Shown piece after piece: positions 5,382 through 28,549 of a stretch of 64,000 bases of DNA (position 1 is the first letter of the stretch; each line of letters opens with the position of its first letter). The notes beneath the pieces are model-generated. The model had not been told where the DNA came from. It saw nothing but the letters and a program-made list of their open reading frames with translations, and made no database searches. The position numbers were made by a program, and so were the translations under genes. The stretch comes from Pseudobutyrivibrio ruminis CF1b (lineage in GTDB: Bacteria; Bacillota; Clostridia; Lachnospirales; Lachnospiraceae), in the NCBI RefSeq assembly GCF_000424005.1, contig NZ_AUJB01000013.1:124001-188000 (forward strand). The letters are read 5' to 3'.

Positions 5382-6599
5382 ATGGGAAATGTTCTTGTAG
5401 CTCAATCAGGTGGCCCAACAGTGGCTATCAACGCCAGTCTTGCTGGTGTTATCGAGGGTACCCTTGGTTCTAGATATGACAAGATATATGGCTCGATCAA
5501 TGGCATTCTTGGAATTAAGAATGACAATGTTATTGACCTCACTTCTGTCGTAGCTAACGACCCTCGTTTCCTGAAGCGTCTTAAGACTACTCCTGCAATG
5601 TATCTTGGCTCTTGCCGATTCAAACTCCCTGGTGTGGATTCTAATGATCCTATCTATGATTCCCTTTTTGACCAATTTAAAAAGTATGATATTGAGGCAT
5701 TTTTCTACATAGGTGGAAATGATTCAATGGATACAGTAGATAAGCTTTCTGCTTATGCTGCTAAAATTGACTCAAAAATCAGATTCGTAGGTGTACCAAA
5801 GACTGTTGATAACGATCTTTGTGTAACAGACCATACACCAGGTTTTGGTTCTGCAGCAAAATACATTGCTACTTCTACAATGGAAGTAATCTTTGATGCT
5901 CAGATTTATGACAATCCAAGTGTCACAATTATTGAGGTTATGGGAAGAGATGCCGGATGGCTTACAGCAGCTACAGCTCTTGCGAAGAATGAGTGCTGCG
6001 ACGGCCCAGATCTTATCTATCTGCCAGAGGTTCCATTTGACAGAGATAAGTTTATCGATGATTTGGCTAACCTTCTCAAGGAGAAGAACAACATCGTCGT
6101 TGCTGTTTCAGAGGGAATCAGAGATGCTCATGGAGAGTATATCTCTGCTGCCACTGGTACACTGGACAACTTTGGACATGCACAGCTTTCAGGCGCAGGA
6201 AAGACTTTAGAGTACCTTGTTAAAGATAAATTGGGGGTTAAGGTTCGCTCTATCGAAGTCAATGTCCTTCAGCGTGCAGCTGCTCATATGTCCAGCCTTA
6301 CAGATATCAACGAGTCAGAAGCTATCGGCAAGAAGGCAGTTGATATTGCAGAAGAGGGCGTTACAGGCGCAATGGTAACAATGGAGCGCATCAGTAATGC
6401 ACCTTATGAAATTAAGCTTAATTATGCGAAGATTCATGATATTGCCAATGAGGCTAAGGAAGTGCCACAGGATTGGATTAATCCTGAGCACAATGGTGTA
6501 ACCTCTGATATGGTGATGTACCTGAAGCCACTTGTAATTGGACTTCCAGATGTGGAGTACAAGGACGGACTTCCAGTGTATGTCTCTCGCGAAAACTAA
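5382..6599 (+). CDS. pfp: 6-phosphofructokinase, PPi-dependent type
   Basis: 405 residues. Phosphorylates fructose 6-phosphate in glycolysis. N-terminal LVAQSGGPTVAINASL is the phospho-donor loop. GGNDS at 111-115 carries Asp114 where ATP-dependent enzymes have Gly (GGDGS), and PKTVDND at 139-145 has Lys140 where ATP enzymes have Gly. These two positions are the established markers of PPi-dependent PFK, so pyrophosphate is the likely donor and the reaction reversible. MGRDAGWLTA (about 187) is the sugar-phosphate site. Length near 400 fits the short clostridial PPi-PFK group. The final four bases overlap the convergent small gene at 6596-6880. Confidence 0.88.
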   Translation: MGNVLVAQSGGPTVAINASLAGVIEGTLGSRYDKIYGSINGILGIKNDNVIDLTSVVANDPRFLKRLKTTPAMYLGSCRFKLPGVDSNDPIYDSLFDQFKKYDIEAFFYIGGNDSMDTVDKLSAYAAKIDSKIRFVGVPKTVDNDLCVTDHTPGFGSAAKYIATSTMEVIFDAQIYDNPSVTIIEVMGRDAGWLTAATALAKNECCDGPDLIYLPEVPFDRDKFIDDLANLLKEKNNIVVAVSEGIRDAHGEYISAATGTLDNFGHAQLSGAGKTLEYLVKDKLGVKVRSIEVNVLQRAAAHMSSLTDINESEAIGKKAVDIAEEGVTGAMVTMERISNAPYEIKLNYAKIHDIANEAKEVPQDWINPEHNGVTSDMVMYLKPLVIGLPDVEYKDGLPVYVSREN

Positions 6600-6880
6600 A
6601 TAACATTTAATTGTAATCTGTTGTAGTCTCTTTCCTCTAAAAGATAGAGGACGCGACGTGCGTGAGAGTACTGGGTGCGATTGATGGAAATAACACAGAC
6701 TTTATTGGCGCCGTGATAAATTCTTCTTCTGAAGAATGGAACACGGTGCCAATTTTTTGAAAATGGTACCGACTGCTCCAGTAAGAGCTCGGAAGTACGA
6801 TTGGATACGATGCGATTAGTAGTCTCGCAGAGAACGATATCTTTGCCGCAATTCTTGGATATCTTAGGTTTTCTTTTCAT
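6596..6880 (-). CDS. Small basic protein of unknown function, partner of the XRE gene
   Basis: 94 residues from ATG at 6880, chosen because AAAGG lies at good distance; a 100-residue frame from 6898 lacks a ribosome site. I do not recognise the family. It is basic, with RVPFFRRRIYHGANKVCVISINRTQYSHARRVL in the C-terminal half, here quoted only in part: RVPFFRRRIYHG and CVISINRTQYSHARR. No membrane segment or signal peptide. It starts 22 bases after the stop of the XRE regulator gene on the same strand and is presumably co-transcribed with it. A toxin-like or regulator-modulating role is possible from the arrangement alone. It overlaps the end of pfp by four bases. Confidence 0.55.
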   Translation of the reverse strand: MKRKPKISKNCGKDIVLCETTNRIVSNRTSELLLEQSVPFSKNWHRVPFFRRRIYHGANKVCVISINRTQYSHARRVLYLLEERDYNRLQLNVI

Positions 6881-6902
6881 TTCTAAATAACCTTTCATAA
6901 CA

Positions 6903-7148
6903 TTAATTCACTTGAATTTCTATTTTTTTGCCCATGGAATCAGCAACTTTAACGAGAAAGTCCAGAGATGGATTGTATTTGCCACTTTCCATTCGGGAGA
7001 TGTTGGATTTTTTGGTGCCTGCTCTCTCGGCAACTGCCTCCTGAGTGAGATGCAGGGAATGTCTGGTGTCACGAAGCTGCTGGGCGATGGAATGACGCGC
7101 CTCCAGAGCCTGGGGTGTGACAACTCCATCAGAATAACGATTCTTCAT
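6903..7148 (-). CDS. XRE-family helix-turn-helix regulator
   Basis: 81 residues. The helix-turn-helix covers about residues 18-75: SIAQQLRDTRHSLHLTQEAV, then AERAGTKKSNISRMESGKYNPSLDFLVKVAD. This is the Cro/CI type and resembles HigA/XRE antitoxin-type regulators. ATG at 7148 is preceded by AGGTGA. An 18-bp perfect palindrome lies inside its promoter (7169-7186), so it very probably represses itself and the downstream 94-residue gene. No HigB/RelE-type toxin was recognised next to it. Confidence 0.85.
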   Translation of the reverse strand: MKNRYSDGVVTPQALEARHSIAQQLRDTRHSLHLTQEAVAERAGTKKSNISRMESGKYNPSLDFLVKVADSMGKKIEIQVN

Positions 7149-7161
7149 AGTTCACCTCATG

Positions 7162-7190
7162 CTTATAAGTTATCATATATGATAACACAA
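7162..7190 (-). promoter_or_regulatory. Promoter of the XRE gene
   Basis: On the minus strand TTGTGT (7190-7185), a 17-base spacer and TATAAG (7167-7162). The spacing is ideal, and the operator palindrome occupies most of the spacer. Confidence 0.7.
7169..7186. promoter_or_regulatory. Perfect 18-bp palindromic operator
   Basis: GTTATCATATATGATAAC reads the same on both strands. It lies between the -35 and -10 of the XRE gene, the usual position of an autorepressor site. Binding by the XRE protein is inferred from position and from the resemblance to operators of HigA-type regulators. Confidence 0.8.
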
Positions 7191-7348
7191 AGCAATGGAC
7201 TTCACAATAAAATCAAGGAATTATTTGAGAAAAATAGAAGATTAGTAGCCCTTTTTTATGAGGGACAAATGAGCTATAATCTTAAATGGAGATTTTTTAA
7301 AACCAGAAAGATTTTTACTAGATGAAAATATAGATTTGGAGGGAGCTT

Positions 7349-8614
7349 ATGGTTGGCAAAAAACAACGTTTCAAAACAGTAGTCTTAATTATTTTTCTTG
7401 CAGTGGTTATTGTAGGCGGCGTTTTTGCTGTTAGTTATTTTAAAGGTGGAGTGACATTCCCATGGCAGGTTGTAACATCGGAGCAGGAAGCTGAGCCGGT
7501 GGCAGAGGAGCCAGCTAAAGAAGAGCCTAAGCTTGTAGTGAAGGAAAAGGCTGATGAAGATAAGGCTAAAAAGGAAGAGGAGCTGAAGAAAGCCAAGGAA
7601 GAGGCAGATAAAAAGGCCAAAGAAGAAGCTGAAAAGAAGGCTGAAGAAGATGCTAAAAATGCTGTAGTTAAGACTGAAAAAAAATTGGATTATGCTAGTG
7701 CTCTTTATGTAGAGGATGGAAAGCTTATTGATACAGCTGGAAATGAGATAGCACTCACTGGTGTTAGCTCAAATAGTATTAATGAGTATCCTGATTATGT
7801 TTCAGCTGATGCCATCAGGGCGCTCAGGGATAACTGGGGTATCAACGTAATCAGACTTGCTATGTACACCAGCGATTACAACGGTTATTGTGTAGGCGGC
7901 AAGGATAATCAGGAAAAGCTCAAGGGTGTCATCGACGAAGCTGTTAAGGCAGCTACTGAAAACGAAATGTACGTCATTTTAGACTGGCATACATTAAACG
8001 ATGCAGATCCAAATGAATACAAATCAGAGGCTATCCAGTTCTTTGGTGAAATGGTTCGTAAATACGAATCTAATGAAAATGTGATTTATGAGATATGCAA
8101 CGAGCCTAGTGGTGATACTACATGGGATGATATTCGTAAATACGCTAATGAGGTTATTCCTGTGATAAAGCGTATTGATGGAGATGCACTTATTTTAGTT
8201 GGAACTCCAGATGGTTGTACAGATTTAGATTCTGTTTTGGAGAACCCACTTGATTTTGGAAATATCATGTATACATATCATTTTAATGCTGGAATAGATA
8301 AATCCAGTCAGAGAAATGCCCTTACAAATGCGCTGGAAGATGGACTTCCTGTTTTCATTTCTCAGTATAGCTATGTAGAGTCTAATGGAGATGTTAATAA
8401 GCATGAGGCATCCAGATGGAATGATACAATAGATGATTATGGCCTTTCATCTGTTATTTGGAACCTGTCCAATACTTATGATGGCTGTGCACTTGTTGAT
8501 AATGGTTGTGAGAAGTTTTATGATTTCACAAATGAGGATTTATCTGCTCAAGGGCAGTATTTCATAGATAGAATTAATAGTTTAGATAGGAGAAATAGAA
8601 GTAATGACAACTAA
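7349..8614 (+). CDS. Membrane-anchored GH5-family (cellulase-like) protein with altered catalytic nucleophile
   Basis: 421 residues. Residues about 9-31 are a signal anchor. About 45-115 is a charged Glu/Ala/Lys-rich helical linker. The rest is a GH5 TIM barrel: GINVIRLAMYTSDYNG, YVILDWHTLNDADPNEY, VIYEICNEPSG with acid/base Glu252, MYTYHFNAG, and VIWNLSNTYDG. The strand that normally reads PVFVSEYG/PIFVTEWG reads PVFISQYS here: Gln339 (CAG at 8363-8365) replaces the nucleophile Glu. Hydrolysis should be abolished or strongly changed, so it may be a cell-surface binding or sensing protein. GGAGGGAG precedes ATG at 7349. TATAAT at 7275-7280 may be the -10. The last 11 bases overlap the aminopeptidase P gene. 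Confidence 0.85.
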   Translation: MVGKKQRFKTVVLIIFLAVVIVGGVFAVSYFKGGVTFPWQVVTSEQEAEPVAEEPAKEEPKLVVKEKADEDKAKKEEELKKAKEEADKKAKEEAEKKAEEDAKNAVVKTEKKLDYASALYVEDGKLIDTAGNEIALTGVSSNSINEYPDYVSADAIRALRDNWGINVIRLAMYTSDYNGYCVGGKDNQEKLKGVIDEAVKAATENEMYVILDWHTLNDADPNEYKSEAIQFFGEMVRKYESNENVIYEICNEPSGDTTWDDIRKYANEVIPVIKRIDGDALILVGTPDGCTDLDSVLENPLDFGNIMYTYHFNAGIDKSSQRNALTNALEDGLPVFISQYSYVESNGDVNKHEASRWNDTIDDYGLSSVIWNLSNTYDGCALVDNGCEKFYDFTNEDLSAQGQYFIDRINSLDRRNRSNDN

Positions 8615-10397
8615 CGAGAAAATCGCAGCATTGCGTGATTTAATGAGGGAGAGAGGAATTGATATGTACCTCATCCCAACAGACGATTTTCACTCATCAG
8701 AATATGTAGGAGAGCACTTTAAGGCACGTAGCTTTATCACAGGCTTTACAGGCTCAGCAGGTACAGCAGTTATCACTTTAAAGGAAGCTCATCTTTGGGC
8801 TGACGGACGTTATTTCGTTCAGGCTGCAAAGCAGATTGCAGATTCAGAGGTTATTTTGGAGCGAATGGGTGAGCCAGGAGTTCCTGAGGTAGAAGAGTTC
8901 ATCGAGCAGAATTTTGTTGATGGAGGATGCCTTGGTTTTGATGGTCGTTGTGTTTCAGCTAAGAATGCAGCGAAGTATTTTGAAATTGCTACAAAGAAGG
9001 GCGGAGAGCTTGCCACTTCAGAGGATTTGGTTGATAAGATCTGGACAGACAGACCAGTTCTTCCAAAGGCTACTACATGGGTACTTGAGGATCAGTTCTC
9101 AGGTGAGACTATGGAGTCTAAGATTGCCCGTATCCGTGAAGAGATGAAAAAGAAAAGTGCTGATGCTCATTTACTTACAGCACTTTACGATATCGCATAT
9201 ACGTTAAACATCAGAGGAAATGATATTGCAAACGTTCCAGTTTTCCTTTCATTCCTCATTATCACAGATGACAGTGTTATCCTCTTTACTGACACTACAA
9301 ACTGGCCAGAAGAGGTTATGAGCTATCTCAATGACAAGGGTGTTAAGCTTTACCCTTACGATATGGTTTACCACTATCTTCAGAGTGCTGACATGGCAGA
9401 CAGAAGAGTTCTTCTTGACCAGTCAATCGTAAATTACAACATGATTAAGGCTCTAGAGGGTTCAGCAAAGATTATCGATGGAAAGAATCCATCAGAGCTT
9501 ATGCGAGCTATCAAAAATGAGACTGAAATCAAGAATACAAAGTGGGCTCATGTAAAAGATGGTGTTGCATGCACAAAGGCTATTAAGTGGATTAAGGAAA
9601 ATGTTGGTAAGGTACCAATGACTGAAATCACTGCTTCAGATTATTATGAGGCTCGCCGCAAGGAGCAGGAGAATTTTGTGGATCTTTCATTCGGTACAAT
9701 CTCAGCTTACGGACCAAACGCTGCAATGATGCACTATAGCGCAAAGGCTGGCTCAGAGGCTACACTTAAGCCAGAGGGCTTCCTCCTTGTAGATTCAGGT
9801 GCTCATTTCCTTGAGGGTACTACAGATATCACACGAACAATCGCTCTTGGTGAGCTTACACAGCAGATGAAAGAGTACTACACAGTAGTTCTTCGTTGCC
9901 ACTTAAGACTTCTTGCAGCCAACTTCCCTAAGGGAGTTACAGGAGCAAACCTTGATATTCTTTCTCGTGGCCCAGTTTGGGATATGGGACTTGATTATCG
10001 TTGTGGTACAGGTCATGGTGTAGGTCACATCTTAAATGTTCACGAAGGACCAAACCGTTTCCACTGGAGAGTTCTTAAGGGACAGAATTCTGCTGAGATT
10101 CAGCCAGGTATGATTACTACAGATGAGCCAGGTCTTTACATTGAGGATGGCTTCGGAATCCGTATCGAGAACGAGCTCCTTTGTGTTGCAGGTGAGACTA
10201 CAGAGTACGGAGAATTCCGTCACTTCGAGGCTATCACATACTGCCCAATCGACCTTGATCCAGTTATCCCAGAGATGATGACTGAGGCAGAGAAGAAGAC
10301 ACTCAACGAGTATCATAAGCTTGTTCGCGAAACATTAAAGCCATACCTTAGCGATGAAGAAAACGCATGGCTCGCAAAAGAGACTAGGGAGATTTAA
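8604..10397 (+). CDS. Aminopeptidase P family protein (Xaa-Pro aminopeptidase, M24B)
   Basis: 597 residues. Removes N-terminal residues that precede proline; cytoplasmic. The long eukaryote-like three-domain form: two creatinase-like N-terminal domains (about 1-310), the M24 pita-bread catalytic domain (about 315-530) and a C-terminal M24_C tail. Metal ligands are visible: LLVDSGAHFLEGTTDITRTI (two Asp), GTGHGVGHILNVHEGP (His) and TDEPGLYIEDG plus IRIENELL (two Glu). ATG at 8604 lies inside the end of the GH5-like gene, with AGGAG upstream. Its stop codon overlaps the polA start by one base, suggesting translational coupling. Confidence 0.93.
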   Translation: MTTNEKIAALRDLMRERGIDMYLIPTDDFHSSEYVGEHFKARSFITGFTGSAGTAVITLKEAHLWADGRYFVQAAKQIADSEVILERMGEPGVPEVEEFIEQNFVDGGCLGFDGRCVSAKNAAKYFEIATKKGGELATSEDLVDKIWTDRPVLPKATTWVLEDQFSGETMESKIARIREEMKKKSADAHLLTALYDIAYTLNIRGNDIANVPVFLSFLIITDDSVILFTDTTNWPEEVMSYLNDKGVKLYPYDMVYHYLQSADMADRRVLLDQSIVNYNMIKALEGSAKIIDGKNPSELMRAIKNETEIKNTKWAHVKDGVACTKAIKWIKENVGKVPMTEITASDYYEARRKEQENFVDLSFGTISAYGPNAAMMHYSAKAGSEATLKPEGFLLVDSGAHFLEGTTDITRTIALGELTQQMKEYYTVVLRCHLRLLAANFPKGVTGANLDILSRGPVWDMGLDYRCGTGHGVGHILNVHEGPNRFHWRVLKGQNSAEIQPGMITTDEPGLYIEDGFGIRIENELLCVAGETTEYGEFRHFEAITYCPIDLDPVIPEMMTEAEKKTLNEYHKLVRETLKPYLSDEENAWLAKETREI

Positions 10398-13102: not shown

Positions 13103-13184
13103 GTGCTTTCCCGTCTTCCATGGAATTTATATATATTTTAATAGGGAGAGTATAAAGCATCATTGTATTAGGAGGATATTGAAA

Positions 13185-14111
13185 ATGTTTCCAAGAAAAC
13201 AAATCAAAGCAAATGCCAGAGCTGCTTTATCAGCTAATTACTGGCCAGTAGTTGGTTACCCACTTTTATTGGGGTTATTGTTAGTTGTGATTATGGTAGT
13301 TTTAGCCATTGGGCCAATTCTTTCATTAGGCGGGCTTCCTGATGCATCTTCAATTGCAACAACTGAGGCTGCTCTAGCAAAAAATCTCGGCACAACACTT
13401 TTGACAGATACTGTATCTATTCTTTTATCAGTATTCTTTATTAATGTTTTAGCTGCAGGCGAGCTATTTTTCTACTACAAGTTCTACAGTGGTTCAAGAG
13501 GAGATTTTGGTACTTTCTTTGAAGGTTTCAAGAATGGTCTCTACTTACACGTAGTTGGTGGCATGTTCCTTATGTCATTGTTTATTTCACTTTGGTCTTT
13601 GATATTTGTTCTTCCAGGAACAATACTTGCAGTTATCGGTTTTACATCATTAATGCTTACAGGTTCTGGTGAAGTAATGTTTATTATTGGTGCCATTCTG
13701 TATATTGCTGGTATCGTTTTAGCTTTTGTTAAGGCATATCAGTACAGCATGATTCCATACCTTCTCATTGACAAGCCAGAATTCACAGTTAGTGATTGCT
13801 TCAACATGACAAAGAAGATGACAAAGGGAAATAAGTGGAACCTTTTTGTATTAGATCTTTCATTCATCGGATGGATTTTACTTTCATTCTTAACAGTTTT
13901 CATCCTTGCAATCTTCTATGTAGGTCCATACATGAGACTTGCATCAGCTGGCGCTTATGATTACCTTAAGAGAATTCATATGCCTGAGGCAACAGAGGGA
14001 CCAGTATTTCAGTCAGCTTCTTATGAGGCAGATTATGCTTCTGTTGAACAGCCAGCAGATAACACTGGTACATTAAACAACACAACAAATGATGATATTT
14101 TTGACGAGTAA
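13185..14111 (+). CDS. DUF975 family integral membrane protein
   Basis: 308 residues from ATG at 13185, nine bases after GGAGG (13171-13175); a TTG at 13179 is too close to that site. The protein starts MFPRKQIKANARAALSANYW, the standard opening of DUF975 proteins, followed by about six hydrophobic segments (about 25-48, 80-105, 120-150, 155-185, 225-250) and a polar, Asn/Asp-rich tail. DUF975 is a Firmicutes membrane family without assigned function. It is followed after three bases by coaE. Confidence 0.85.
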   Translation: MFPRKQIKANARAALSANYWPVVGYPLLLGLLLVVIMVVLAIGPILSLGGLPDASSIATTEAALAKNLGTTLLTDTVSILLSVFFINVLAAGELFFYYKFYSGSRGDFGTFFEGFKNGLYLHVVGGMFLMSLFISLWSLIFVLPGTILAVIGFTSLMLTGSGEVMFIIGAILYIAGIVLAFVKAYQYSMIPYLLIDKPEFTVSDCFNMTKKMTKGNKWNLFVLDLSFIGWILLSFLTVFILAIFYVGPYMRLASAGAYDYLKRIHMPEATEGPVFQSASYEADYASVEQPADNTGTLNNTTNDDIFDE

Positions 14112-19774: not shown

Positions 19775-20509
19775 ATGGAAAGAACTGGAATTGAAGAAGG
19801 TTTTGTCTTGGTGAGAGATTTTCATAGAGAGTACTTTGGCGGCAATCAGGGATGGTTTTCAGAAGATGACAGGCCTAAGGTAAATAAATATGGCTGTGGA
19901 ATCATAGCAGCGGTGAATACTTATTTGTATCTGGCGGGTATTACCAGAGTGACTAAAAATGGTTACATGAGTCTGGTGGATGAGTTTGTCAGGATGTATC
20001 CACTTTCCAGACTGTGCCTGAATATAGGTCTTGGCGTGCTTCCATGGCAGATGTCCTCTTATATAAAACGAAAGTGCAGGGCTGCTGGAATTAAGGTAGA
20101 GCCAGATTGGCAGGGACGAAGGGGTGTTGGAAATCTGTATGAAAAAATGAAGCAGGCACTCTCAGAAGATACCCCAGTTATATGGGCCTTCTATAACCTG
20201 AAGCCATCTCACAAAATCCAGTTCTACAAATATATTAATGGTGAGTTTAGGGATACCTATCTGGATCAGCACGACATGGAGCACAGATATGATGATGTGA
20301 ACAGCCATTATGTTACTGTTACTGCCGTGTTTGAATCTGAGAAAGATGGAAAGCTGCAGCGGTGGGTGGAGATATCTTCCTGGGGATCAAAATATTATGT
20401 TAATTATGATGAGTACAAGAACTTTGTTAGAAACGCAGGAGGAATACTTAATCCCTTAAATTTGGTTAATGCATATTGCTCGAATATTTTAATTATAAAA
20501 AAGCGATAA
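19775..20509 (+). CDS. Papain-like (C39-like) cysteine peptidase fold protein
   Basis: 244 residues, family not firmly recognised. NKYGCGIIAAVNTYLYLAG places Cys41 at the start of a helix, as in C39/papain-type peptidases. NSHYVTVTAVF gives a candidate catalytic His178, and EISSWGSKYYVNYDEY matches the papain-fold SWG strand, although Ser202 stands where Asn or Asp is usual. No signal peptide or membrane segment, so it acts in the cytoplasm or is exported by an unknown route. No ABC exporter or bacteriocin precursor is adjacent. The ribosome site is poor (GGGGG 12 bases upstream). The last codons fall in a 30-base sequence repeated after the xylanase gene. Confidence 0.6.
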   Translation: MERTGIEEGFVLVRDFHREYFGGNQGWFSEDDRPKVNKYGCGIIAAVNTYLYLAGITRVTKNGYMSLVDEFVRMYPLSRLCLNIGLGVLPWQMSSYIKRKCRAAGIKVEPDWQGRRGVGNLYEKMKQALSEDTPVIWAFYNLKPSHKIQFYKYINGEFRDTYLDQHDMEHRYDDVNSHYVTVTAVFESEKDGKLQRWVEISSWGSKYYVNYDEYKNFVRNAGGILNPLNLVNAYCSNILIIKKR

Positions 20510-20717: not shown

Positions 20718-20751
20718 AAGTATGGCAACAATTTACAAAAGGAGAAGATGT

Positions 20752-22800
20752 ATGAAAAAATTCAAAATCAGAAAACTGATGGCAAGAGTACTGGCACTTG
20801 CCTTAGTTTTCGGCACATTTTTTATGGCGTCTAAGGTAGATGTCAGCGCTGCCAGCTACAATTTAATGGAGACCTATGGAGCAAAATATGGGTACTCTGG
20901 AAACTGTGTGCATACACACATGCTTAGGGATTCAAGAATTGTAAATGCAATCAAAAAGGATTCCAATATAGTAACACTTGGTAATGAAATGAAGCCTGAT
21001 TACCTTTTGGGAAGTAGACAGGCAACTCTTATTTCGGTTGATGAAGCAAAGCGTCTTGGTTACTATATTCCTTCAAATTACAAAGAGCGTTTTGTCCCAA
21101 AAATTGATTTTAGAACAGTTGATGAAGCAGTAAAAATTTGCTATGAGAATGGTCTTAAGATGAGAGGTCATACTCTTGTATGGCATTCACAGACCCCAAC
21201 CTGGCTATTCAGAGAGAATTATTCAGGAAATGGCAGATTTGTAAATACAGCTACTATGGATGCTCGTCTTGAGTTTTATGTTAAGTCTGTAATGGGACAT
21301 TTCTATTCAGGCAAATACGGTAGCACACTGGTATATTGGGATGTGTGCAATGAGACACTTCATGCTCAGAATTCTGGTTGGGAAGCTGTTTACGGAAGCA
21401 ACAAGACAAACGCAGTATATGTAAAGAAAGCTTTTAATTACGCATATCAGGTACTTGAGCAGTACAAGCTTACAAATTCAGTTAAGCTTTTCTACAACGA
21501 CTACAATACATACATGGAAGTCAATGATGTGATAAAATTAGTAAACTACATCAATCAGGGGAAGAAGGTTTGTGCGGGTGTAGGCATGCAGTCACATCTT
21601 GGAACAGGCTTTCCTTCAGTAGATTATTATACAAATGCACTTAACTCATTCCTTCGTGCAGGATTTGAAGTGCAGATTACAGAGCTTGATATCACAAACA
21701 AAGGCGATTATGATTTGAACAATTACGCATATCGCCTGTTTAAAAATATTAACGCCGCAAAAAAGAATGGTGGAAACATTTCATGTATCACATGGTGGGG
21801 ACCATCAGATGCAGAGACATGGATTAGAAATGAAAAGCCACTTATCTGGTCAAATATTGGTGTTGCAAAGCCAGCCTATGATGAAGTTGTAAAGGCATTT
21901 ACAGAGACATTTGGTAATCCTGGTTCATTTACACCACAACCAACGATTACACCACAGCCAACGCCAACCCCTACACCATCTGGACAAAACGTAAATACGA
22001 ATTCAACAGCACATATTGATGATGGCTGGTATTATTTAAAGAATACAAATTCACAGAAGTATCTTACAGTTGAAGGTGATTCAGCTAAGGCTGGTGCAAA
22101 TGTTTGTATTGGAACAGGAAGAGGCCTTGATGGTCAAAAATGGTATGTTAGGAATACAAATGACGGATATATTACCCTCACATCTAAGCTTGGTGACTTC
22201 ATGCTTGATGTAGCAAATGGTTCTGCTGAAGATGGTGCAAATATTGGTATTTACAATGCATATGGCGGAGATGCTCAGAAGTTCTTATTAAAGAATACCA
22301 AGACAAATGGTGTTTATACTATTGCTACAAAGTCTTCTAAGGAAGTGCGTTACATTGATGTTTATGAGCACAAAAAAGTTGAAGGCACCAATGTATGTCA
22401 GTGGTTATATTATGGCAATCCAAATCAGGAATGGGTATTTGAGAAGGTAGCTGAGCAGTCAGTTACACCTCAGCCAACACCAGTTCCAACACCAGTTCCA
22501 CAGCCAGCAGTTAAGGGATTAGAGCTTAGTTATACAATCAATAACTGGGGAAGCGGCTATCAGGTAAGCTATAAGATTTCTAATGCCACAGGAAACACAG
22601 TTAACGGATGGACATTAAAGGTAAATAAGAATCAGGTAAACATCGATTCTAGCTGGAATGTAAAGGTCACAACAAGTGGTGATTATTATGTAATCACACC
22701 GGTTGACTGGAACGCAAGCATTGCAAATGGAGGAAGTATCGAGTTTGGCAGCGTAGGCGTAGGCCAGATAGGAAACTCATTTGATTATGTATTAGAGTAA
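20752..22800 (+). CDS. Secreted GH10 endo-1,4-beta-xylanase with CBM13-like and CBM2-like modules
   Basis: 682 residues from ATG at 20752 (AAAGGAG at 20738-20744); an upstream in-frame ATG at 20722 lacks a ribosome site and would spoil the signal peptide. Signal peptide 1-34 ends near VSAAS. The GH10 domain (about 36-388) contains MRGHTLVWHSQTPTWL, acid/base Glu201 in YWDVCNETLH, nucleophile Glu311 in VQITELDI and CITWWGPSDAETW. A Pro/Thr linker leads to a ricin-type beta-trefoil (about 422-565: DGWYYLKNTNSQKYL, GQKWYVRN, NQEWVFEKV). A second Pro/Thr linker leads to a CBM2-like domain (about 583-682: LSYTINNWGSGYQVSY, VNGWTLKV). All catalytic residues are present. It hydrolyses xylan outside the cell, with cellulose and xylan anchoring by the modules. 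Confidence 0.95.
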   Translation: MKKFKIRKLMARVLALALVFGTFFMASKVDVSAASYNLMETYGAKYGYSGNCVHTHMLRDSRIVNAIKKDSNIVTLGNEMKPDYLLGSRQATLISVDEAKRLGYYIPSNYKERFVPKIDFRTVDEAVKICYENGLKMRGHTLVWHSQTPTWLFRENYSGNGRFVNTATMDARLEFYVKSVMGHFYSGKYGSTLVYWDVCNETLHAQNSGWEAVYGSNKTNAVYVKKAFNYAYQVLEQYKLTNSVKLFYNDYNTYMEVNDVIKLVNYINQGKKVCAGVGMQSHLGTGFPSVDYYTNALNSFLRAGFEVQITELDITNKGDYDLNNYAYRLFKNINAAKKNGGNISCITWWGPSDAETWIRNEKPLIWSNIGVAKPAYDEVVKAFTETFGNPGSFTPQPTITPQPTPTPTPSGQNVNTNSTAHIDDGWYYLKNTNSQKYLTVEGDSAKAGANVCIGTGRGLDGQKWYVRNTNDGYITLTSKLGDFMLDVANGSAEDGANIGIYNAYGGDAQKFLLKNTKTNGVYTIATKSSKEVRYIDVYEHKKVEGTNVCQWLYYGNPNQEWVFEKVAEQSVTPQPTPVPTPVPQPAVKGLELSYTINNWGSGYQVSYKISNATGNTVNGWTLKVNKNQVNIDSSWNVKVTTSGDYYVITPVDWNASIANGGSIEFGSVGVGQIGNSFDYVLE

Positions 22801-24316: not shown

Positions 24317-27300
24317 ATGGGTATTAAGAAAATTTGTAGTATGACAGGTGTTGTGGCATTGCTGGTTACATGCCTTTTATCTATAAATATTGATACCCAG
24401 GCAGGTGAAGCCAAGGATGTAAAAAGTACAAAAGTTGGTGGCGGTTACGCCGTTACAGGTGAATTGGGCGATACCAGCTATATGGCAGAAATCTACGACG
24501 CCACAAATAGTCTGCCAGCCTCAGAGTCTAACTTTATCCTTGCTGATAATGAAGGATATATGTGGCTTTGTGGCTACAGTGGAGTAATAAAATTTGATGG
24601 ATCCTCTTTTGTCAAACAGGATACTTCTGAAGGTATGACAAATGGAAGAGTAATCTTTCAGGATTCAAAAGGTAAGATATGGGTCGGCACAAATGACAAC
24701 GGAGTAGTTGTTATTGATGATGGTGTGCGGACCCATTTTACGTTTGAGGAAGGCTTGCCTTCTTCATCTATCAGAACATTTGCCGAGGATGATGAGGGGA
24801 ATGTTTTCATAGGAACCACTCAGGGAATAGCCTATGTTACTCCTGAAATGAAGGTGGTTAATTTTGATTGTGATTTATTAAATACACAGCGTATTCTTAG
24901 ATTATCAACCGGTAAGGGTGGCATCATTTATGGCTACACAAAAAAAGGTGATATATTTTCTGTTGAATCTAAAAAACTAACATCATTTTATAAGAATGGT
25001 CATCTGGGCATAAATAAGATTACTAACGTCTATGCCGATCCAATCAATGAAGGAAAAGCATACATAGGAACCGAGTACGGTTATTTGTACTATGGCAACT
25101 TTGGAACCACATTGAAATCACTTGAGGAGATATCATTATCCCCTCTTAAATCTGTGAAATGGATAACTGAAGAGTGTGGTTATATCTGGGTGGCTTCAGA
25201 GACAGAGGTCGGATATATAAATCAAATTCATCGTTTTGTTCTCGTTGATAAACTGCCTTTAAACAGTTCGATTGAAATGTTTACATCAGATTATCAGGGA
25301 AATCTTTGGTTTGCCTCTTCAAGACAGGGTGTAATGAAAATAGTTGCTAATAATTTCATTAACTACACTGAAAAGGCAGGCATTGAGGATAGGGTAGTTA
25401 ATGCTACCTGTTATCACAAAGGCACATTGTATGTGGGTACTGATGAAGGACTGTACATTATTGATAAAAATTTAAGGCCTGTAACGAATGAAATGACAGA
25501 ATTTATTGGAGACAATAGGGTTAGATGCATTATTGATGATGAAGACGGAAATGTCTGGTTTGCTGTTTTCTCAAACAATATGGGCTTAATTCGCCTGTCT
25601 GCAAATGGAGAAATTTCATCTTTTAGAACCCATGATGGATTACCTAGTAATGAAATCAGATGCCTGAGGAACGGATTTAATGGAAATATTCTGGTAGGAA
25701 CCAATGAAGGAGTAGCCATTATTAACGATGGAGAATTAACTCTTTCTATGAATGGAGAGATATTAAAAACACCAGTTGTCCTTGATTTATTGGAATTAGA
25801 AGATGGAACCCTATACGTGGCAACTGACGGTGATGGCATCTATGTCATAAAGGATGGCGTACAGATAGATAGAATTGGACATGATGAGGGACTTACCAGT
25901 GATGTTGTCATGAGAATGAATAAGGATTCCCAGAGGGATGTTATATGGATTACAACATCCAATTCCATAGAATATATGAAAGACGGGAAAATCACTAACG
26001 TCTCAACATTTCCTTACACTCACAATTTTGATATCTATTCGGACAATGATGATGAACTTTGGATATTGGCGTCCTGTGGTATTTTTAGTGTTCCTGTACA
26101 ACAGATGCTGGATGACAAGGTTACAGATTACAGAGAATATAACCTGGCAAATGGGCTAACCAGTATGCCTATAGCCAATGAACGAAGCGACATAGATGTT
26201 TACGGAAACCTCTATGTAGCAGGAATGACAGGCGTAAGTAAAGTAAATATTAATCGCTATCATGATGCTAATTGCGACGTGCGAGTGGGAATCGCCTCAG
26301 TTACTTGTGATGATGTAAAACTTGAACCAGATGAGACTGGAACCTACGTGATTCCTCCAGATGTCAACCGTATTCAGATTAGTCCTGCTGTTATGGATTA
26401 CTCTATGATGAATCCTGTAGTTAAGGTATTTTTTGATAAAGTTGGTGATGGAGGTATGACTTCACAGCGAAGCCAACTTCATACATTGGATTACACGGGG
26501 CTTAAATATGGGGATTATGTACTGCATATCCAGATTCTTGATAATGTCACAGGAGAAATAAGGCAGGATGAGACCTTTAAATTTATTAAGCAGCCAAGAT
26601 TATTTGAACGTACCAGCGTGAGAATACTATTGATATTTTTGCTTGCAGCAGCTGTTGCCTTTATAGTATGGAGAATCATGACTGGAACAGTTATCAGAAG
26701 GCAGTACGTTGAGATTCAGATGGCAAAGGATGAGGCTGAACGTGCCAACACTGCAAAATCCAGATTCCTTGCAAATATGTCCCATGAAATCAGAACTCCT
26801 ATTAATACTATTATGGGTATGAATGAAATCATTCTTAGGGAGGATACAGAAGGTGTTCCTAAATCCTATTTTATGTCGGTGGTGAACTGCTCCCTGGATA
26901 TTAGAAATGCAGCAGAATCTCTTCTTGGGCTGATTAATGAAATCCTGGATATATCTAAGATTGAATCAGGAAAAATGCATCTGGTTGAGCAGGAATATGA
27001 GCCTGAAGAACAATTAAGATCCATTATTTCTATGATTAAAGTTAAAAGCCAACAGAAGGATTTGACATTTGATTGGGAGATAGATAACAAGTTGCCTAAA
27101 AAGCTTTATGGTGATGCAGGCAAGGTGAAACAGATAATATTGAATCTTCTCACAAATGCAGTGAAATATACTGAGCAGGGTGGATTCACACTTAAGGTAA
27201 CAGTGGAGAGTAAATCTGCAGAAGATTGTGCAGTTCGTATATCCGTTAAAGATACGGGAATTGGTGTAAAGACAGAGGATTTAGACAAACTCTTCACAGC

Positions 27301-28549
27301 ATACGAAAGACTGGATGAGGAAAAGAACAGTTCTATTCAGGGTACGGGACTTGGACTTGATATCTCAAGACGTTTTGCTGAGCTGATGAATGGCAAGCTT
27401 TGGTGCGAGAGTGAATATGGAAAAGGCTCTGAGTTTATTTTCACATTCAGTCAGAAAGTAGTGGATGCTGATGGTATAGGAGAGTTTAAAGAGCATGAAG
27501 AGTATGTTGCCAAGGGACCTTATGTTCCAAAGTTCTATGCTCCTGATGCAAAGGTGCTGGTTGTAGACGATAACACGATGAACCTGGCTGTTTTTAAGGG
27601 GCTTATAAAACCAACAAAGGTACAGGTTGAAACTGCTACCAGTGGTTTGGAATGTTTGGAAAAAGTAAAGTCAGGTAATTACGATATCGTCTTTCTGGAT
27701 CACATGATGCCAGGAATGGATGGCCTGGAGACATTTATAAAGCTTAGAGAAATCAACAAGGATGTTCCTGTATATGCCCTTACTGCAAACACCATGACTG
27801 ATCCGTATAAGTTCTATGAGTCTAAGGGATTTAATGGATATCTTGCAAAGCCAATTGATACTGAGGAGCTGGAATATACAATGATGTATCAGTTAGGTGA
27901 TAAGATAACTGAACGTCCAGCATCAGAGCTTGAAAAGCAGACTTCTGATGAATTCCCAGAGAATATGGCCTGGATAAAGGAGGTTGATGGAATTTCCATC
28001 GAGGATGGTATAAAGGGTTCTGGAGGAATTAATGCATTTATTAACAGTATAGAGCTGTTTTTTGATACAATAGATGAAAACACCAAGGTGTTGGAAGATG
28101 CATATAATGATGGTGACTTTAAGCTTTATACTATTAAGACTCATGCACTGAAATCTTCAGCCAGAATTACTGGTGCCATGGAGCTTTCAGCTTTTGCCGA
28201 GAAAATGGAAAAGGCTGGAAAGTCTGATGACATTGACTACATAACAGCTCATCATGAAAAACTACTGAACCAGTACAGGCTTTTTAAGGATAAGCTTAAA
28301 CCAATAAAAGATATTTCTGCTGATTCATCAGAGGATAATGATTTGCCTGAGGTTCCAGAAAATAAACTGGCAGGAGCATACTCTGCCATGAGAGAAATCG
28401 TTCCTCAGATGGATCATGAAATGATGGAAATGATTATTTCAGAACTGAAGGAATATAAGCTTCCTGCAGAGGATGCAGAAAAGATTGATAGTGTATCAAA
28501 GATGGTTAAGCGATTTGACTGGGATGGTATAGAGGAATTACTAAAATAA
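24317..28549 (+). CDS. Hybrid sensor kinase with extracellular beta-propeller, receiver and Hpt domains
   Basis: 1410 residues. A signal peptide (about 1-27) leads to about 640 residues of two-component propeller repeats (GYMWLCGYSGVIKFDG, GKIWVGTNDNGVVVID, GNVWFAVFSNN and others), then a Y_Y_Y-like beta domain (about 655-760) and one membrane helix (about 770-790). Inside the cell: HisKA with His823 in NMSHEIRTPINTIMG, HATPase with NLLTNAVKYTEQGG, DTGIGV and GTGLGLDISRRFAELM, receiver with Asp1128 in VFLDHMMPGMDG, and Hpt with His1276 in IKTHALKSSARI. This resembles the polysaccharide-sensing HTCS of Bacteroidetes but has no AraC domain. All phosphorelay residues are present. The ligand is unknown; the xylanase gene lies 1.5 kb upstream. 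Confidence 0.92.
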   Translation: MGIKKICSMTGVVALLVTCLLSINIDTQAGEAKDVKSTKVGGGYAVTGELGDTSYMAEIYDATNSLPASESNFILADNEGYMWLCGYSGVIKFDGSSFVKQDTSEGMTNGRVIFQDSKGKIWVGTNDNGVVVIDDGVRTHFTFEEGLPSSSIRTFAEDDEGNVFIGTTQGIAYVTPEMKVVNFDCDLLNTQRILRLSTGKGGIIYGYTKKGDIFSVESKKLTSFYKNGHLGINKITNVYADPINEGKAYIGTEYGYLYYGNFGTTLKSLEEISLSPLKSVKWITEECGYIWVASETEVGYINQIHRFVLVDKLPLNSSIEMFTSDYQGNLWFASSRQGVMKIVANNFINYTEKAGIEDRVVNATCYHKGTLYVGTDEGLYIIDKNLRPVTNEMTEFIGDNRVRCIIDDEDGNVWFAVFSNNMGLIRLSANGEISSFRTHDGLPSNEIRCLRNGFNGNILVGTNEGVAIINDGELTLSMNGEILKTPVVLDLLELEDGTLYVATDGDGIYVIKDGVQIDRIGHDEGLTSDVVMRMNKDSQRDVIWITTSNSIEYMKDGKITNVSTFPYTHNFDIYSDNDDELWILASCGIFSVPVQQMLDDKVTDYREYNLANGLTSMPIANERSDIDVYGNLYVAGMTGVSKVNINRYHDANCDVRVGIASVTCDDVKLEPDETGTYVIPPDVNRIQISPAVMDYSMMNPVVKVFFDKVGDGGMTSQRSQLHTLDYTGLKYGDYVLHIQILDNVTGEIRQDETFKFIKQPRLFERTSVRILLIFLLAAAVAFIVWRIMTGTVIRRQYVEIQMAKDEAERANTAKSRFLANMSHEIRTPINTIMGMNEIILREDTEGVPKSYFMSVVNCSLDIRNAAESLLGLINEILDISKIESGKMHLVEQEYEPEEQLRSIISMIKVKSQQKDLTFDWEIDNKLPKKLYGDAGKVKQIILNLLTNAVKYTEQGGFTLKVTVESKSAEDCAVRISVKDTGIGVKTEDLDKLFTAYERLDEEKNSSIQGTGLGLDISRRFAELMNGKLWCESEYGKGSEFIFTFSQKVVDADGIGEFKEHEEYVAKGPYVPKFYAPDAKVLVVDDNTMNLAVFKGLIKPTKVQVETATSGLECLEKVKSGNYDIVFLDHMMPGMDGLETFIKLREINKDVPVYALTANTMTDPYKFYESKGFNGYLAKPIDTEELEYTMMYQLGDKITERPASELEKQTSDEFPENMAWIKEVDGISIEDGIKGSGGINAFINSIELFFDTIDENTKVLEDAYNDGDFKLYTIKTHALKSSARITGAMELSAFAEKMEKAGKSDDIDYITAHHEKLLNQYRLFKDKLKPIKDISADSSEDNDLPEVPENKLAGAYSAMREIVPQMDHEMMEMIISELKEYKLPAEDAEKIDSVSKMVKRFDWDGIEELLK

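Follow-up and report, generated by a model that had tools for sequence, protein, structure and literature searches.

The closest described counterparts of the protein considered here are the Cel5A-type endoglucanases of GH5 subfamily 2, represented by structures from Bacillus agaradhaerens (1a3h and 1h5v), Bacillus subtilis (3pzt) and an ancestral Cel5A (6gjf). We take the canonical set of GH5 residues to be R, H, N, E, H, Y, E and W. Laboratory replacements of the nucleophile Glu by Gln are also available, one of them being T. fusca Cel5A E355Q (PDB entry 2ckr, titled as a complex), in which E355 is presumably the nucleophile. Another is MtGlu5 E393Q, described as inactive but still able to bind, and be stabilised by, CMC (PMC9063844). 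The window analysed in the current study, a stretch of 64,000 nucleotides from Pseudobutyrivibrio ruminis CF1b, encodes a protein with the same chemical change, which in both laboratory forms is a single introduced mutation. This protein shares with the Cel5A-type enzymes the fold, the acid/base Glu and the Arg, His, Asn, His and Trp residues, but its nucleophile is Gln, the Tyr of the YHFY motif is Asn, and two pocket His residues and a Lys have been lost. Compared to these enzymes, it also adds an N-terminal membrane anchor and a stalk.

A GH5 barrel with an altered active site

The features of the locus are listed below, where "Gln type" and "Glu type" refer to the residue at the nucleophile position.

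7349..8614, + strand: Gln-type GH5_2-like surface protein, 421 aa, ATG start
7349..7468, + strand: N-terminal membrane anchor, hydrophobic segment at about residues 10-28
7469..7690, + strand: charged Glu/Lys/Ala stalk, helical at residues 74-104 in the model
7691..8578, + strand: GH5 (beta/alpha)8 head, residues ~115-410, block mean pLDDT at least 88
7772..7774, + strand: Asn142 replacing a pocket His (opposite the His of SSHG in 6gjf_A)
8102..8104, + strand: Glu252, the acid/base, retained in CNEP (orthologue and family counts)
8285..8287, + strand: Asn313 replacing the conserved Tyr of YHFY (opposite the Tyr of HFYAG in 6gjf_A)
8297..8299, + strand: Asp317 replacing a pocket His (opposite the His of AGTH in 6gjf_A; Gln in the other five Gln types)
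8363..8365, + strand: Gln339 (CAG) replacing the nucleophile Glu (alignment, orthologue and family counts)
8474..8476, + strand: Thr376 replacing a pocket Lys (the Lys after the Trp strand in 6gjf_A; Ser in the other five Gln types)
8604..10397, + strand: pepP-like M24 aminopeptidase, whose start overlaps the GH5 stop

The open reading frame is preceded by a GGAGG-like site (identified by eye), and its product belongs to GH5 by sequence, with a PF00150 match of 179.2 bits against a cut-off of 23.5 (E=1.5e-52, residues 128-375; Pfam). It belongs there by fold as well, since the AlphaFold2 model (mean pLDDT 85.7) contains a (beta/alpha)8 barrel for which Foldseek ranked 6gjf_A first (TMt ~0.92). 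The best PDB matches in both sequence and fold were Cel5A-type endoglucanases, with 36-39% identity to these structures among the best twelve Foldseek matches; 1egz and 1tvn, titled GH 5-2, were also matched. A Glu-type orthologue (L006) gave a model like that of the window protein. The N-terminal anchor and charged stalk proposed in the initial annotation are supported by both the sequence and the model; the first 45 residues contain no Cys, and the anchor is alike in Gln and Glu types. Flanking the gene are a phosphofructokinase-like gene (5382-6599, assigned by eye) on one side and, on the other, the pepP-like gene, which is the downstream neighbor in all 25 genus loci compared (L003-L027).

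Gln339 stands opposite the Glu of VTEWG in the GH5 endoglucanase 6gjf_A (alignment E=2.4e-66), and Glu252 is read directly and confirmed by the orthologue and family alignments; on both residues the initial annotation was correct. Six of the eight canonical residues (R169, H214, N251, E252, H311 and W371) are present and are invariant across 6 Gln-type proteins, 22 Glu-type proteins of the genus and 128 family proteins. The acid/base Glu in NEP is thus in place, but the nucleophile Glu on the last catalytic strand and the Tyr are missing, leaving the set incomplete. The replacement of this Tyr by Asn313 is the strongest second change and was absent from the initial annotation. In Cel5A numbering, residues 339, 313, 142, 317 and 376 presumably correspond to E228, Y202, H35, H206 and K267, respectively. 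In addition, the Trp/Tyr at 289 has been lost across the Gln clade and Trp146 in the window protein alone. We take the positions of His142, His317, Lys376 and Trp/Tyr289 to be glucan contacts in Cel5A-type enzymes, and the losses at 142, 317, 376 and 289, together with that of Trp146 in the window protein, would argue against binding of the same glucan.

The initial annotation had recognized that its interpretation depended on no other Glu taking the nucleophile position, and the alignment shows no replacement acid. Every column that is acidic in all six Gln types is also acidic in at least 7 of the 22 Glu types (the lowest being residue 133, acidic in 7 of 22), and a relocated nucleophile is ruled out because the Gln clade has no acid of its own. 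Of 142 columns that are near-invariant in the Glu-type orthologues, eight are lost throughout the six Gln types (127, 142, 275, 313, 317, 339, 341 and 376), 22 are mixed and the other 112 are preserved in every one. Five of these eight lost columns fall within a set of 14 pocket columns based on Cel5A (hypergeometric P=2e-4, a value that serves as a guide only, as the set was written after the losses were known). New states have become fixed in all six Gln types at 142, 289, 290, 313, 339 and 341. Counting departures from columns that are invariant in the other proteins, each Gln-type protein has 11-14 of 115, compared to 0-5 of 115-120 for Glu-type proteins.

Distribution of the Gln type in the genus and family

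An orthologue was found in 28 of the 29 genomes in the genus search, the only genome without a match being G014 (83% complete). Twenty-two of the orthologues are of the Glu type, to which the window protein is 49-65% identical, and six are of the Gln type, so the homologue search suggested in the initial annotation did recover relatives sharing the Glu-to-Gln change. The Gln-type genomes are the window's own, G028, G027 (locus L004, recorded as P. xylanivorans DSM 14809), G019 (L022, sp. 49), and G024 and G012, which correspond to the metagenome-assembled (MAG) loci L003 and L005, as judged from matching ORF lengths and identities. Gln339 and Asn313 occur together in all six, while Glu and Tyr occur in all 22 Glu-type proteins of the genus and in all 128 family homologues; the double loss is therefore seen in none of the 150 other proteins. 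The family census comprised 128 fetched homologues from outside the genus, among the matches listed in a search that drew 397 genomes from a larger family, and it left out G070 and the matches ranked below G098:C1.

The Gln codon is CAG in four genomes and CAA in two, and with six genomes and two codons a sequencing error is a very unlikely origin of Gln339. In a 54-row head tree built without the eight diagnostic columns, the six Gln types form one clade (support 100/97, with the bootstrap not fully settled) that requires a single change. The initial annotation had argued that the substitution was not accidental, and the occurrence of six genomes in one clade bears this out. However, its additional arguments fared less well: Tyr340, taken there as an unexpected replacement of Trp, is the usual residue in Glu types of the genus (20 of 22, with Cys in the other two) and lends no support, and Ser341 is weak evidence, with Ser present in 48 of the 128 Glu-bearing family homologues, even though within the genus every one of the 22 Glu types has kept Gly341 and none of the six Gln types has.

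Apparent exchange and selection of the head

The head appears to have been swapped as a cassette between Gln-type and Glu-type species at a fixed locus before pepP, judging from the disagreement between head and flanking sequences. The clearest case is L003, on a MAG contig, which seems to combine the flanks of a Glu-type species with the head of a Gln-type species. Here the 620 bases upstream of the gene agree with those of L010 (a Glu-type locus, P. ruminis AD2017) at 36-40 positions in each 40-base block, and the opening 260 bases of the gene do so at 33-40; compared to a second Glu-type locus, L007, the upstream stretch and the first 200 gene bases are 95-100% identical. From approximately base 341 to past the stop at 1320, the agreement is with the Gln-type L005 (35-40 of 40), after which the sequence again follows L010. 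The upstream junction lies in the stretch equivalent to the stalk (7469..7690) or at the start of the head. Synonymous divergence (dS) between L003 and L010 is 0.05 for PepP, 0.13 for PolA and 2.33 for the head, while between L003 and L005 the corresponding values are 0.97, 1.75 and 0.06; as a metagenome-assembled contig, L003 is a possible chimera, and L005 is also a MAG.

Exchange is also seen among records not labelled as MAGs, where the Glu-type L006 differs from L010 by a dS of 0.23 in the head, 0.81 in PepP and 1.68 in PolA. In a PepP tree of 26 rows (five of them Gln type, representing all but G028), the Gln type requires three changes, two or more of them forced by well-supported branches, compared to one in the head tree, and L006 is placed among four Gln types (support 100/100). 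The record of L006 is named Butyrivibrio fibrisolvens 16/4, yet genome kinship (G001) places it in the genus of the window and its PepP clusters with those of P. xylanivorans-type genomes, so that name and kinship disagree. Across 325 pairs, PepP identity tracks PolA (rho 0.70) better than it tracks the head (rho 0.35). The flanks can also disagree with each other (L003 and L007 have a dS of 0.10 in PepP and 0.72 in PolA), so recombination here extends beyond the head.

Within the window, a conservation scan of 53 ORFs found the GH5 gene to be the least conserved (64-65%) of those with full-length matches in the G027, G019 and G001 stretches, the next-lowest genes (192-863, 13179-14111 and 19775-20509) having 67-74% identity. 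An overlapping TTG-start ORF at 6912-7325 was excluded and judged spurious, as a helix-turn-helix gene occupies the opposite strand. This small Cro/C1-type gene (6903-7148, - strand; HTH_3 E=1.2e-12) is divergent from the GH5 gene, and the palindrome TTATCATATATGATAA at 7170-7185, between the two, is perhaps its operator. Downstream of it, a 100-aa ORF (6596-6898, - strand), whose identity is 93-94% in three relatives but lower, at 77%, in G028, has no Pfam match at E 0.01 and is a possible partner of the helix-turn-helix gene. The DUF975 membrane protein gene (13179-14111, + strand) is another fast-changing gene, with 67-70% identity to three relatives, compared to 89-97% in the same relatives for the adjacent polA and coaE. 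Compared to G028, it is only 27% identical, below the GH5 gene at 63%. Farther along the window are a GH10 xylanase with ricin-type lectin and CBM2 domains (20722-22800, + strand), which is 97% identical in the G019 stretch and without a match in the G027, G001 and G028 stretches fetched, and a 1410-aa hybrid two-component protein (24317-28549, + strand) with Reg_prop propeller, HisKA, HATPase, response regulator and Hpt domains.

Selection was estimated from pairwise Nei-Gojobori dN/dS on the head, for which many pairs are near dS saturation. Among Gln types, the ratio is 0.071-0.129 in 14 of 15 pairs and 0.20 in the closest pair (dS 0.06), while the Glu-type median is 0.135 (37 pairs with dS of 0.05-1.5). 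At low divergence, the Gln type has values of 0.071-0.20 (six pairs, dS <=0.64; the other nine have dS >1, near saturation) compared to 0.035-0.089 for the Glu type (eight pairs, dS <0.75), indicating that the Gln type is somewhat less constrained in this range. All six Gln-type genes retain full-length frames free of internal stops. Because dN/dS is 0.07-0.13 in 14 of 15 pairs, the gene is evidently being maintained, and these ratios indicate that the Gln-type protein is kept by purifying selection. Fast selection alone was rejected as the cause of head divergence, as head dS is also many-fold above that of the flanks in close pairs.

A possible but less likely alternative is that the head is a variable surface determinant, such as an adhesin or the target of a phage or bacteriocin, for which selection maintains allelic diversity; the loss of catalysis would then have been a tolerated by-product, with the activity itself not under selection. 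The many-fold excess of head over flank dS in close pairs such as L003 and L010 is consistent with this possibility, as is the position of the GH5 gene as the least conserved in the comparisons with G027, G019 and G001. However, dN/dS is low within both types, with no sign of diversifying selection at the level of residues; other window genes approach the same divergence, and the DUF975 gene exceeds it in the case of G028; and some close pairs, such as L020 and L026, have heads as close as their flanks.

Probable function of the Gln-type protein and comparison with known systems

The initial annotation had called the protein a pseudo-enzyme, and comparison of the sequences now makes this status well supported: catalytic residues have been lost (Gln and Asn313 in six of six Gln types and none of 150 others), while the fold persists in the AlphaFold2 model and purifying selection persists in dN/dS. 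A role in binding or sensing glucan, also raised in the initial annotation, is possible. We consider it probable that the Gln-type protein is a selected, non-hydrolytic, ligand-binding pseudo-cellulase of the cell surface, GH5_2-like in form, with a head that is mobile between species as a cassette. Under this model, a core locus of the genus would encode a membrane-anchored, stalked surface protein whose double-displacement machinery was lost once within the genus, through replacement of the nucleophile Glu by Gln and of the conserved Tyr by Asn. Because it retains the barrel, the acid/base Glu and the greater part of the canonical pocket, the protein may bind a glycan-like ligand in a remodelled cleft and leave it uncleaved, either tethering the cell to this ligand or sensing it. 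Recombination would then carry the Gln-type head from one species to another in place of the intact Glu-type one, the upstream breakpoint lying within the stalk or where the head begins and the downstream one shortly after the stop codon.

Binding without cutting seems most likely because retaining hydrolysis needs the Glu that has been lost and, by analogy, the MtGlu5 E393Q protein is inactive yet stabilised by CMC; its probable role is therefore to hold or sense a ligand, not to digest it. Since the residues contacting the substrate have also been altered, the ligand may no longer be cellulose; it has probably changed in the Gln clade, and cellulose itself is doubtful. If the Glu-type orthologues are active cellulases, as we assume, an intact cellulase head and a dead, re-tooled head could both be under selection and be swapped between species through recombination in the stalk, forming a trans-species polymorphism between digesting and holding or being targeted, a proposal that we offer tentatively. 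An intact GH5_2-like paralogue is present in the same genome as the window, but backup by an active paralogue cannot be a general explanation, because three of the six Gln-type genomes (G012, G024 and G028) have no second match in the genus search.

A change of chemistry in place of a loss of activity appears very unlikely. GH85 enzymes use substrate-assisted catalysis with Asn at the stabilising position, and by analogy N-acetylhexosamine glycans might be cleaved here by Glu252 with Gln339, Asn313 and Asn142 at the -1 site. Retention of the acid/base and five other canonical residues in all six proteins would suit such an enzyme, as would fixation of newly acquired amides at positions 142, 313 and 339, but the closest relatives and the fold are those of glucanases, and we know of no precedent for substrate-assisted catalysis in GH5. 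That the gene is a decaying remnant of a cellulase whose loss was neutral is scarcely credible: the absence of the nucleophile and several pocket residues and a dN/dS slightly above that of the Glu type at low divergence are what decay might produce, but intact frames in six of six genomes, low dN/dS in 14 of 15 pairs, a synonymous CAG/CAA change at a fixed Gln, six fixed new states and an apparent spread through recombination all speak against it.

The pseudo-cellulase reading has several implications. The locus offers a natural conversion of an enzyme to a pseudo-enzyme in six genomes, with active-type orthologues as controls, and the rumen bacteria concerned include the one recorded as P. 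xylanivorans DSM 14809. In a Pfam-based annotation pipeline, this gene would be labelled a cellulase. If heads are traded between species, a count of CAZyme genes would say little about fibre digestion, and the benefit of a non-cutting surface cellulase would become directly testable. A search of titles and abstract openings in the open-licence literature returned no report of a natural GH5 protein with a nucleophile Glu-to-Gln change or of this locus; the available portions of PMC7523725 and PMC8627218 mention neither the residue nor the locus, and those of PMC11205865 and PMC10071621 hold nothing decisive.

Compared to the Glu-type orthologues of 22 genus genomes, the window protein has the same position before pepP, the same anchor and the same stalk, but in the orthologues the nucleophile, Tyr and pocket residues are intact. 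The paralogue in the same genome (G000:C11:4074-4952, L002) has a GH5_2-like head (E=2.3e-49, 35% identity) in which the Glu, Tyr, His and Lys are intact, and it differs in having a secreted-type leader, a long Pro/Thr linker and a C-terminal CBM2-like domain (assigned by eye). Natural glycosidase pseudo-enzymes include the GH18 chi-lectins, heparanase 2 and the beetle GH28 pseudo-pectinases, in which the fold has been kept after catalytic loss, as here, but in other families. To our knowledge, none of these or other natural glycosidase pseudo-enzymes takes the form of a head cassette traded at a single locus. Inactive glycosidase folds are a known kind of protein, while the natural GH5_2-like form with both Glu-to-Gln and Tyr-to-Asn changes, kept by selection and apparently exchanged for the intact head through recombination, appears to be new within the open-licence literature searched.
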